In this document: positions 16,195 to 25,461 of the stretch, piece after piece
Layout of the letters: every line of letters starts with the position of its first letter
Numbering within the stretch: the first letter of the stretch is position 1
DNA from: Streptomyces sp. TLI_235
GTDB taxonomy: Bacteria; Actinomycetota; Actinomycetes; Streptomycetales; Streptomycetaceae
DNA: 64,000 bases
Direction of reading: 5' to 3'
NCBI GenBank assembly: GCA_002300355.1
Contig: NSGV01000002.1
Location: 1,488,001 to 1,552,000, forward strand
Position numbers and translations under genes: made by a program
Notes under the pieces: model-generated
What the model saw: the letters and a program-made list of their open reading frames with translations, nothing else
Databases searched by the model: none
What the model was told of the DNA's origin: nothing

Positions 16195-16420
16195 GCCCCT
16201 ACCGTACTGGGCAGCGCCTACCTCCCCCGCGCACGCGCGCGAAGGGGGGTCCGGGGCGGCCCGCGGACGGGCCGTCAGGTGCACGGGAAGCGGCCCTCCG
16301 GTATGGTCCGCACCGCTGTGACGACGGGGAATCCACCAGGCGTCCCAGAATGCGAAACATCCGCGTCCAAAATGCGGACGTTAGTGGACCGAGGGTCGTT
16401 CGCCGTGCGAATCTCTTGCC

Positions 16421-16504
16421 ATGCCAAGCGCCGGAGCCACCCTAGTAGGTCGACTGCACGTCGATCTCCTCCGCGTGTCCAGCGCCATCTGTCCGGTGAC
16501 CTGA
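16421..16504 (+). CDS. Sulfur-operon leader peptide (27 codons)
   Basis: A short upstream reading frame, starting MPSAGATL and ending GRLHVDLLRVSSAICPVT before TGA. This is the RxHVDLxRxxSAxC pattern of the putative leader peptides that precede sulfur-assimilation genes in streptomycetes. It stands 190 bp before the sulfite reductase start. There is no clear ribosome site; GAATCT at 16409-16414 could be a -10 placing transcription start at or next to the ATG (leaderless). The single Cys codon near the end suggests that ribosome stalling under cysteine shortage controls the downstream operon. Family recognition is from memory; the mechanism is inferred. Confidence 0.8.
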   Translation: MPSAGATLVGRLHVDLLRVSSAICPVT

Positions 16505-16602
16505 GCCCTACCCCGCCGCCACCCACGGCACCGGCGCCGGCACCTCGCGAATCCCCGCCGATGCGGATGCGCGGGCGCCCTCCGGCCAGCGTCACTGCAC
16601 CC

Positions 16603-16639
16603 TGACGCCTGCAGCAACTGCGCAGGTCAGAGCAGTTGC
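16603..16639 (+). promoter_or_regulatory. Possible attenuator/alternative hairpins before sulfite reductase
   Basis: GCAACTGC (16614-16621) pairs perfectly with GCAGTTGC (16632-16639). An overlapping stem, TGAC.CCTGC (16603-16612) with GCAGG.TCA (16622-16629), places the first arm of the other stem in its loop. The two structures could therefore compete, as in leader-peptide attenuation. No U run follows. Read by eye, with no folding energies calculated. Confidence 0.4.
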
Positions 16640-16694
16640 GTGCCCGGGGATGCCGAATCCCTCATCAGAGCCAGCTGCCAAAGGACGAGACACC

Positions 16695-18419
16695 ATGGCC
16701 CCTACTCCCGAACCGGTCGAGCCCACGGTCGCCGGCGCCCCCGTGCGCCGCCCCGCCGCCGCCCGCAAGGTGACCCGCCACCGCGGCGAGGGTCAGTGGG
16801 GCATGGGCCACTTCACGCCGCTGAACGCCAACGAGCAGTTCAAGAAGGACGACGACGGTCTCAATGTGCGGACACGCATTGAGACGATCTACGCGCACCG
16901 CGGCTTCGACTCCATCGACCCGGCGGACCTGCGCGGCCGGATGCGCTGGTGGGGCCTGTACACCCAGCGCAAGGAGGGCATCGACGGCGGCAAGACGGCC
17001 ATCCTCGACCCCCACGAGCTGGACGCCGAGTACTTCATGCTCCGGGTCCGCATCGACGGCGGCCAGCTGACGGTCGCCCAGCTGCGGGCGATCGCCGAGG
17101 TCTCCGAGCTGTACGGCCGCGGCACCGCCGACCTGACCGACCGGCAGAACGTCCAGTACCACTGGATCCGGATCGAGGACGTCCCGTCGATCTGGCAGAA
17201 GCTGGAGGCCGTCGGCCTGTCCACCACCGAGGCCTGCGGCGACACCCCGCGCGTCATCCTGGGCTCGCCGGTCGCCGGTATCGCCGAGGACGAGATCATC
17301 GACGGCACGCCCGCGATCGCCGAGATCCAGCGCCGCTTCATCGGCAACAAGGAATTCTCCAACCTGCCGCGCAAGTTCAAGTCCGCGATCTCCGGCTCGC
17401 CGCTGCTGGACGTGGCGCACGAGATCAACGACATCGCCTTCGTCGGCGTCGTCCACCCCGAGCACGGCCCCGGCTTCGACCTCTGGGTCGGCGGCGGCCT
17501 GTCCACCAACCCCAAGCTGGGCGTCCGGCTCGGCGCCTGGGTGCCGCTGGAGCAGGTCCCGGACGTGTACGGCGGTGTCATCGGCATCTTCCGCGACTAC
17601 GGCTACCGCCGGCTGCGCAACCGCGCCCGGCTGAAGTTCCTGGTCGCCGACTGGGGCGTGGAGAAGTTCCGCCGGGTGCTGGAGGACGAGTACCTCAAGA
17701 CCGAGCTCGTCGACGGCCCCGCGCCGGCCGAGCCGGTCGCCCGCTGGCGGGACCACGTCGGCGTCCACCGGCAGAAGGACGGCCGCTACTACGTCGGCTT
17801 CGCGCCGCGCGTCGGCCGGGTCAACGGCAAGGTCCTCGGCCAGATCGCCGACCTCGCCGAGCAGCACGGCTCGGACCGCCTGCGCACCACCGCCGAGCAG
17901 AAGATGATCGTCCTCGACGTCGCCGAGGACCGCGTCGACTCCCTGGTGGCCGGCCTGGAGGCGCTCGACCTGCAGGTCAAGCCGTCCCCGTTCCGCCGCG
18001 GCACGATGGCCTGCACCGGCATCGAGTACTGCAAGCTCGCCATCGTCGAGACCAAGGAGCGCGGCCGCACCCTGATCGACGAGCTCGAGCAGCGCCTGCC
18101 GGACTTCGACGAGCCGCTCACCATCAACATCAACGGCTGCCCCAACGCCTGCGCCCGCATCCAGGTGGCGGACATCGGTCTCAAGGGCCAGCTGGTCACC
18201 GACGACGACGGCGAGCAGGTCGAGGGCTACCAGGTGCACCTCGGCGGCGCGCTCGGCCTGGAGGCCGGCTTCGGCCGCAAGGTCCGCGGTCTCAAGGTCA
18301 CCAAGGACGGCCTGCCGGATTACGTCGAGCGCGTGCTGACCCGCTACCGGGCCGACCGCCACGAGGGCGAGCGCTTCGCCCAGTGGACGGCCCGGGCCAC
18401 CGAGGACCAGCTCTCGTGA
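16695..18419 (+). CDS. sir: Ferredoxin-dependent assimilatory sulfite reductase
   Basis: Reduces sulfite to sulfide with six electrons, using siroheme and a [4Fe-4S] cluster. It has 574 residues in the usual two-repeat nitrite/sulfite reductase layout. Cluster and siroheme ligands are visible in MACTGIEYCK and INGCPNACAR. GLYTQRKEGIDGG and TDRQNVQYHW mark the N-terminal half. A Tyr (ETIYAHRGF) and a Cys (TEACGDTPR) are candidates for the Tyr-Cys cross-link of the Mycobacterium enzyme. ATG 16695 follows AAGGACGAG. First structural gene of the sulfur operon; its stop overlaps the next start. Confidence 0.95.
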   Translation: MAPTPEPVEPTVAGAPVRRPAAARKVTRHRGEGQWGMGHFTPLNANEQFKKDDDGLNVRTRIETIYAHRGFDSIDPADLRGRMRWWGLYTQRKEGIDGGKTAILDPHELDAEYFMLRVRIDGGQLTVAQLRAIAEVSELYGRGTADLTDRQNVQYHWIRIEDVPSIWQKLEAVGLSTTEACGDTPRVILGSPVAGIAEDEIIDGTPAIAEIQRRFIGNKEFSNLPRKFKSAISGSPLLDVAHEINDIAFVGVVHPEHGPGFDLWVGGGLSTNPKLGVRLGAWVPLEQVPDVYGGVIGIFRDYGYRRLRNRARLKFLVADWGVEKFRRVLEDEYLKTELVDGPAPAEPVARWRDHVGVHRQKDGRYYVGFAPRVGRVNGKVLGQIADLAEQHGSDRLRTTAEQKMIVLDVAEDRVDSLVAGLEALDLQVKPSPFRRGTMACTGIEYCKLAIVETKERGRTLIDELEQRLPDFDEPLTININGCPNACARIQVADIGLKGQLVTDDDGEQVEGYQVHLGGALGLEAGFGRKVRGLKVTKDGLPDYVERVLTRYRADRHEGERFAQWTARATEDQLS

Positions 18420-23768: not shown

Positions 23769-24561
<793 letters not shown>

Positions 24562-24575
<14 letters not shown>

Positions 24576-25461
24576 CACCACCACCCTGGTCAAGGACCCG
24601 ACCGGCGACACCGCGAGCGTCGAGGCCGGCCTGGACGCCCTGGACGCCGTCCAGGTCCAGCGCACCCCGCTCACCCAGGTGCTGCGCCAGAAGGTCCTGC
24701 CGCCCGTGCTCGGCGTGCTGCTCGTCCTCGGCGTCTGGCAGCTCGCCTTCAGCCTGGAGCTGACCACCCCGGACAAGCTGCCCAGCCCGGCCGCCGTCTG
24801 GACCTCGCTCACCGACCTCTGGTACGAGGGCACGCTGTTCTCGATCATCTGGACCAGCGTGTGGCGCGGCATCTCCGGCTTCCTCGCGGCCGTCGTCATC
24901 GGCACCCCGATCGGCCTGCTGGTCGCCCGGGTCAAGCCGATCCGGGCCGCGCTCGGCCCGGTCCTCTCCGGCCTGCAGTCGCTGCCCTCGGTCGCCTGGG
25001 TGCCCGCCGCCGTCATCTGGCTCGGCATCAACAACTCGGCGATGTACGCGGTCATCCTGCTCGGCGCCGTCCCGTCGATCGCCAACGGCCTGGTCTCCGG
25101 CGTCGACCAGGTCCCGCCGATCTACCTGCGGGCCGGCCGCACCCTCGGCGCCACCGGCCTGGCCGGCGCCCGCCACGTGCTGCTGCCCGCCGCCCTGCCC
25201 GGCTACCTGGCCGGCCTCAAGCAGGGCTGGGCGTTCTCCTGGCGCTCGCTGATGGCCGCCGAACTCATCGCCTCCTCCCCCGACCTGGGCCTCGGCCTCG
25301 GCCGCTACCTGGAGAACCAGCGCGAGTTCAACGACATGTCGGGCGTGCTGCTCGGCATCGTCCTGATCCTGGTCGTCGGCGTGGCGATCGACCTGCTGGT
25401 CTTCTCCCCGCTGGAGCGCCGCGTGCTGCGCAACCGCGGCCTGCTGGTCACCACCCGCTGA
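24562..25461 (+). CDS. ssuC: Sulfonate-type ABC transporter permease
   Basis: Membrane permease of 299 residues with about six helices and the SsuC/TauC coupling-loop signature AGRTLGATGLAGARHVLLPAALPGYLAGLKQGWAF around residues 192-226. PSVAWVPAAVIWLGI is also typical. A cytoplasmic N-terminal extension of about 40 residues precedes the first helix. ATG 24562 lies inside the ssuB 3' end. Confidence 0.92.

Follow-up and report, generated by a model that had tools for sequence, protein, structure and literature searches.

The leader ORF and its sulfur gene cluster

The window, i.e. the whole stretch of 64,000 nucleotides analysed here, carries a short open reading frame (ORF) in front of a group of sulfur genes headed by a sulfite/nitrite reductase (SiR). 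By direct reading of the letters, the ATG start codon of this ORF is at 16421-16423 and its TGA stop codon at 16502-16504; the frame, the coordinates and the residues are exactly those given in the initial annotation. The distance of 190 nt between the leader and the reductase, which was also part of that annotation, holds when it is measured to the conserved SiR ATG at 16695. The mechanical ORF, which begins at 16650, is longer than SiR read from this alignment-conserved start. The leader and the genes that follow it are located as follows.

16421-16504, + strand: leader ORF, 27 codons plus TGA, product MPSAGATLVGRLHVDLLRVSSAICPVT, member of NF042934
16490-16492, + strand: conserved Cys codon TGT, codon 24 of the leader, three codons 5' of the stop
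16681-16686, + strand: AAGGAC, Shine-Dalgarno (SD) sequence of SiR, conserved among the aligned orthologs listed
16695-18419, + strand: SiR (Pfam), first gene of the sulfur cluster, with its ATG at 16695 conserved among the aligned orthologs listed
18613 and 19945: PAPS-reductase domain (Pfam)
19349: APS kinase (Pfam)
20885: EF-Tu-type GTPase, CysN-like (Pfam)
22446: ABC substrate-binding protein (Pfam)
23769: ATPase (Pfam)
24559-25461: permease (Pfam)

A 66-residue frame at 18416 gave no match in the Pfam search.

With regard to the identity of the ORF, the NCBIfam model NF042934 (cis_reg_atten), "putative leader peptide", matches MPSAGATLVGRLHVDLLRVSSAICPVT with a score of 37.7 bits, its cut-off being 27 (E = 1e-9, hmmscan). 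This score above the curated cut-off agrees with the initial proposal of a leader of the RxHVDLxRxxSAxC type. The model of the Ms4527A Cys-rich leader, NF042936, gives 20 bits, which is under its cut-off of 45 (hmmscan). No family was matched in a Pfam search of the leader peptide, and an Rfam search of the window returned nothing at the gathering score, with one sub-threshold, chance-like match on the other strand. A position 5' of sulfur genes is what we take to be the defining trait of NF042934, and SiR and sulfate-assimilation genes do follow here.

Other leaders of this type precede a variety of genes. Ten proteins encoded 3' of paralog leaders all had Pfam matches, namely ThiS, rhodanese, NMT1-type binding protein, acyl-CoA dehydrogenase, FMN reductase, cysteine dioxygenase, APS kinase, SDF symporter, luciferase-like monooxygenase and DUF4395. 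A role in sulfur metabolism is plain for several of them (ThiS-type carrier, rhodanese, APS kinase and cysteine dioxygenase), and we infer such a role for the remaining ones.

Conservation of the leader and of its upstream region

The initial annotation had suggested searching related genomes with the leader-family models and had named a lack of RLHVDL..SAIC conservation at related loci as a possible refutation. The leader was matched at E <= 1e-7 in 69/70 genomes of the source genus, and the motif was found to be conserved, with the leader kept before SiR. As these matches come on top of the E-value obtained with NF042934, the ORF at 16421-16504 is beyond chance. Judged from its sequence, it is a real, conserved leader peptide and a further member of an already known family. 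All 69 same-genus leaders exhibit an ATG start, a TGA stop and, 260-317 nt past the leader stop, the SiR motif RGEGQW. Some codons that are rare in the genes of the window recur in these SiR leaders: codons 5, 8, 9 and 11 are GGA (69/69), CTA (45/69), GTA (37/69) and CGA (69/69), respectively.

A match over the NF042934 cut-off was observed in 59 of the 61 relatives searched. An exact-pattern scan of named genomes yielded 37 stretches, 24 of which are named Kitasatospora and 11 Streptomyces, and many of these 37 genomes are probably also among the 69 same-genus ones. From the names, the host is more likely to be Kitasatospora-like than a member of Streptomyces sensu stricto. The SiR motif is found downstream of the leader in 34/37 of these stretches; those of L251 and L257 stop 174 and 76 nt past the match, which is too short to show it. 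In L272 (Mangrovactinospora gilvigrisea), a SiR-type leader precedes a gene that resembles, by eye, the ABC substrate-binding gene of the cluster, and the UTR differs; either the leader has shifted from one sulfur gene to another or the genes have been rearranged. L282, which is without SiR, and L272 are apparently one contig, as they are equal in length and sequence.

At the level of the taxonomic family, 149/200 genomes and 14/17 genera gave a match at E <= 1e-4, the source genus being counted. Twenty other-genus loci were hand-picked for diversity from the match lists with their letters still unseen; a leader is recognisable in 19 of them, and SiR lies downstream in 18 of those 19, the exception being L282. 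In the twentieth, L291, no leader was found by the motif used. In a draw across the phylum, a match to NF042934 at E <= 2e-5 was obtained in 7/149 genomes, including the source genome.

Conservation extends upstream of the leader, where the following elements were identified.

16342-16358, + strand: GTCCCAGAATGCGAAAC, a related block that is a degenerate copy of the GTCCAAAATGCGGAC dyad
16365-16379, + strand: GTCCAAAATGCGGAC, a dyad adjoining the -35-like element
16385-16390, + strand: TGGACC, -35-like element
16409-16414, + strand: GAATCT, -10-like element, 6 nt 5' of the leader ATG

TGGACC is present in 69/69 orthologs and GAATCT in 64/69; the two elements are 18 nt apart in 63/64 orthologs with both, and 6 nt separate GAATCT from the leader ATG in 62/69. 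No SD-like tetramer was found between -15 and -4 relative to the leader ATG in any of the 69. The promoter-like elements and the missing SD suggest that the leader start is probably leaderless. A generic sigma-70 scan scored no promoter at the elements at 16385-16414. The dyad occurs in the form GTCC(N5-9)GGRY in 69/69 orthologs and in a similar form in the other-genus rows listed; together with the degenerate copy, it is a candidate regulator-binding site, which would make a second layer of control possible.

Codon usage at the conserved cysteine

The Cys at codon 24 is encoded by TGT in all 69 same-genus SiR leaders. At the protein level, TGT was observed at the conserved Cys in 56/56 leaders of a first search, among them the leader of the window itself, and in 21/22 leaders of a second set, the exception being L183. 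Forty regions had been hand-picked for diversity from the match lists before their letters were seen, and the second set comprises all 22 new loci of the draw across the phylum. Pooling of the protein-level sets gives TGT in 77/78 leaders; this becomes 78/80 when L014 and L016 are added, and 74/75 when only the leaders over the cut-off are considered. From the search of the source genome itself, 8/18 matches were used, eight others being short matches at E > 0.1. L014 (TGT) and L016 (TGC; 24.8 bits, below the cut-off) were left out after their codons had been seen, and L015, L017 and L019 were counted although they are below the cut-off. TGT is also present in 37/37 leaders of the pattern scan, whose genomes overlap the 69, and in 19/19 other-genus leaders. 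The TGA of L183 and the TGC of L016, a weak own-genome match, speak against the codon reading favoured below. L183 is a family leader with TGA at the conserved Cys position and another Cys earlier, and might be either a leader in decay or one in which the pause occurs at the stop codon.

This preference is not shared by Cys at other positions. Elsewhere in these peptides, Cys is encoded by TGC 45 times and by TGT 7 times in the first set, and 21 and 8 times in the second, and TGT accounts for 6/89 Cys codons of the window genes (36 plausible genes chosen by base composition). The near-invariant UGU is the most noteworthy part of our results when set against this UGC preference of the window genes. 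The remaining codon counts refer to 77 leaders, L183 being excluded. As these leaders are related to each other, they cannot be treated as 77 separate cases; when the peptides are clustered greedily at 75% identity, 18 sequence types are left, all with TGT. When positions are counted from the conserved Cys, R(-13) and R(-6) are each encoded by five codons, L(-8) by four, and D(-9) by GAC in 58 and GAT in 19 leaders. The Cys found seven codons upstream, C(-7), is TGC in 24 cases and TGT in 2. The codon of S(-3) is also biased (AGC in 38/40). The base following TGT varies, being C in 60, T in 12, G in 4 and A in 1 of the 77.

The UGU codon is read by a GCA anticodon through G-U wobble. Two clearly different tRNA-Cys genes were found in the source genome (L217 6251-6324 and L233 90-164) and, since both carry the anticodon GCA, UGU is probably wobble-read here. 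No tRNA-Cys with an ACA anticodon was found in the 44 tRNA loci scanned, a set that covers one of the 12 long-arm tRNA matches. A conserved UGU in these leaders is not mentioned in the titles and abstract openings of the literature searched, mostly without subscription papers, and we do not claim novelty for it. The conservation of TGT in nearly all relatives hints that this one codon may serve the ribosome as a measure of cysteine.

Possible mechanisms of control

The reading that we favour, with a probability of roughly 0.55, is that 16421-16504 encodes a leader peptide, probably with a leaderless start, which would act in cis and inform the sulfur genes headed by SiR of the cysteine supply. 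In favour of this reading are the NF042934 membership, the placement before SiR, the sulfate-assimilation genes that follow, and the TGT found in 77/78 leaders while the R, D and L positions use two to five codons. The ribosome would begin at a 5'-terminal AUG, synthesise RLHVDLLRVSSAI and then reach UGU, which would be decoded through wobble by tRNA-Cys(GCA), the sole tRNA-Cys type found. When Cys-tRNA is short, the ribosome would wait at UGU with its leading edge over the leader stop. The near-terminal position of the Cys, already pointed out in the initial annotation, recurs across the family (3 codons from the stop in median, range 0-7, in 77 leaders), so that a waiting ribosome would cover the stop region. 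It would thereby shield C-rich RNA from an event that switches expression off by default, in the simplest case termination by Rho ahead of SiR. With ample cysteine, the ribosome would finish and depart, and the operon would be turned down. The leaderless start, the pausing, the cysteine response and the Rho step are all parts that we infer. Such control would help to explain how these actinomycetes adjust their sulfur assimilation.

The default-off step relates to the RNA between the leader stop and SiR, in which one region stands out.

16505-16564, + strand: C-rich, G-poor stretch (C 0.55, G 0.25), candidate Rho-loading region

In the 60 nt past the leader stop, the 69 orthologs have mean contents of C 0.57 and G 0.22; for comparison, the values in the window are C 0.38 and G 0.34 upstream of 28 genes and C 0.42 and G 0.36 downstream of 23 stop codons. 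A simple stem-plus-T-run scan found no intrinsic terminator at 16300-16720. A default-off Rho step would fit with this lack of a terminator-like site and with the C-rich, G-poor RNA past the stop. In the paralogs, a C>G skew was observed in 40/77 cases against 8/28 controls (p = 0.046), where the paralog fraction is either 0.62 of 78 or 40/77 depending on the handling of threshold ties and the lower value is quoted, the controls being those of the count that gave 0.62; this skew is modest and extends far past the stop region. The rut-like composition is compatible with Rho, with an excess that is weak in the paralogs, and it hints at Rho as the most likely second step.

Several features fit less well with waiting at a codon as the sole principle. 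Classical attenuation is weakened by the presence of only one Cys codon in the leader, and a model based purely on codon waiting is weakened by the conservation of the amino-acid motif, which such a model does not need. Simple induction by cysteine starvation fits poorly, as the family also precedes cysteine dioxygenase, a cysteine-degrading enzyme.

These features can be compared with those of known cysteine leaders. The study Canestrari 2020 reportedly describes mycobacterial poly-Cys short ORFs in which a stalled ribosome frees the ribosome-binding site. The SiR leader and the Ms4527A mycobacterial leaders are alike in being short, probably leaderless ORFs before cysteine-metabolic genes. 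However, Ms4527A-type leaders exhibit a Cys run, whereas one Cys is present here, the NF042936 score is under the cut-off and SD release was not found on average. With NF042934 itself, the leader has in common a match well over the cut-off and a place at the head of a sulfur cluster, and none of the features compared differs; this comparison is based on the name and description of the model, which are silent on codons.

In the portions available of the following papers, Canestrari 2020 is cited by PMC9094748 and PMC13236596, and Cys-rich uORFs in mycobacteria are a matter of speculation in Shell 2015 (PMC4633059). The available part of Seliverstov 2005 (PMC1262725) describes actinobacterial cys leaders without a terminator, for which Rho was suggested. 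These share with the SiR leader the position before cys genes and the lack of a terminator, but the cases given there come from Mycobacterium, Propionibacterium and Bifidobacterium and have several Cys codons in a row, in contrast to the one Cys here. For the uORFC-8-2 motif before cysS, it was proposed in the consulted part of PMC8632094 that the Cys codons of the uORF sense Cys-tRNA; that motif has tandem Cys codons, mostly UGC, and a U-run terminator, whereas UGU stands alone in the SiR leader and the scan showed no terminator-like site. In S. lividans, the sections seen of PMC8079986 report several leader peptides as leaderless; the eight identified in that species are Leu, Trp, Ala, Ile, Met and Thr leaders, with none for Cys. 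A mechanism for single-Cys NF042934 leaders was not described in those parts of the literature that we consulted.

The most probable alternative to codon waiting, which we nevertheless consider somewhat unlikely, is nascent-chain arrest, in which RLHVDLLRVSSAI in the exit tunnel would stall the ribosome and the signal would be either a metabolite or the Cys-tRNA for the codon that follows. Each of the residues R(-13), D(-9), L(-8) and R(-6) is found in 76 or all 77 of the leaders although its codon varies, which indicates that the peptide itself is under selection. Nevertheless, chain arrest alone leaves the retention of UGU over UGC unexplained. It can act jointly with codon reading, and we tentatively consider, at less than even odds, a sensor with two keys, in which the conserved nascent chain slows the ribosome and the wobble-decoded UGU, not UGC, ties the pause to Cys-tRNA. 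If this were true, one codon rule would be shared by about 18 leader sequence types across many sulfur genes, and codon choice within one amino acid would be a conserved regulatory signal. A silent TGT to TGC change would separate codon reading from explanations based on the peptide or on RNA structure.

Translational attenuation, in which the SiR ribosome-binding site would be paired with the leader region at the Cys codon until a stalled ribosome released the SiR SD, appears unlikely. Pairing of UGUCC with GGAC of the SD is possible and is present in several MFE structures. In models of the window copy that include no more than 33 nt of SiR coding sequence, the SD is paired with the Cys region, and a ribosome placed there opens it by 0.05-0.14; the effect is gone with at least 36 nt. 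In line with this dependence on the modelled 3' end, the window copy had shown no change in one ensemble calculation and +0.14 in another. A strong response was modelled in some relatives (e.g. L126, L129, L149 and L171-L173). However, across the 69 SiR leaders the predicted probability of an unpaired SD is 0.49 when free and 0.48 when masked, and the mean change for 23 SiR orthologs modelled with four 3' ends is -0.02 to +0.03. For the 70/78 family leaders that were modelled, the other 8 having been skipped for want of a start or gene, the value goes from 0.22 to 0.27, which does not differ from control masks (p = 0.45). In these models, SD release is therefore not supported on average and is model-dependent in the window copy. 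In the LEU element of leuA, as drawn in the part of PMC1262725 that was available, the regulatory codons pair with the SD of the next gene, whereas the corresponding UGUCC:GGAC pairing is unsupported on average here.

It is quite improbable that UGU is retained as part of an RNA-structure or RNA-protein site rather than as a codon. The end of the leader can form a helix, P2, with a downstream arm.

16589-16597, + strand: GCGTCACTG, possible P2 helix partner of the leader 3' end, with one C-C mismatch in the window copy

GATC occurs in the 3' arm of P2 in nine orthologs, and each of these has GATC in the 5' arm as well. However, UGU lies outside P2, and P2 is mismatched in the window copy and in L081, L086 and L112 and broken in L079, L083 and L089. 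UGU is also constant across unrelated downstream regions, with a variable next base. P2 was rejected as a conserved element because its covariation amounts to one position, it is broken in some orthologs and it is rare in other genera (the GGTCAC arm is present in 3/19 other-genus rows).

An untranslated or non-functional ORF with an incidental HMM score is very improbable, as the ORF is intact with ATG and TGA in 69/69 orthologs and shows codon-level constraint.

With regard to other pairings in this region, an in-ORF hairpin, P1, was rejected, as one pair is lost in the 12/69 leaders with GGC at codon 10. The sequence GCAGGTC at 16622-16628 is kept in most of the aligned orthologs listed and is complementary to the leader end GACCTG.
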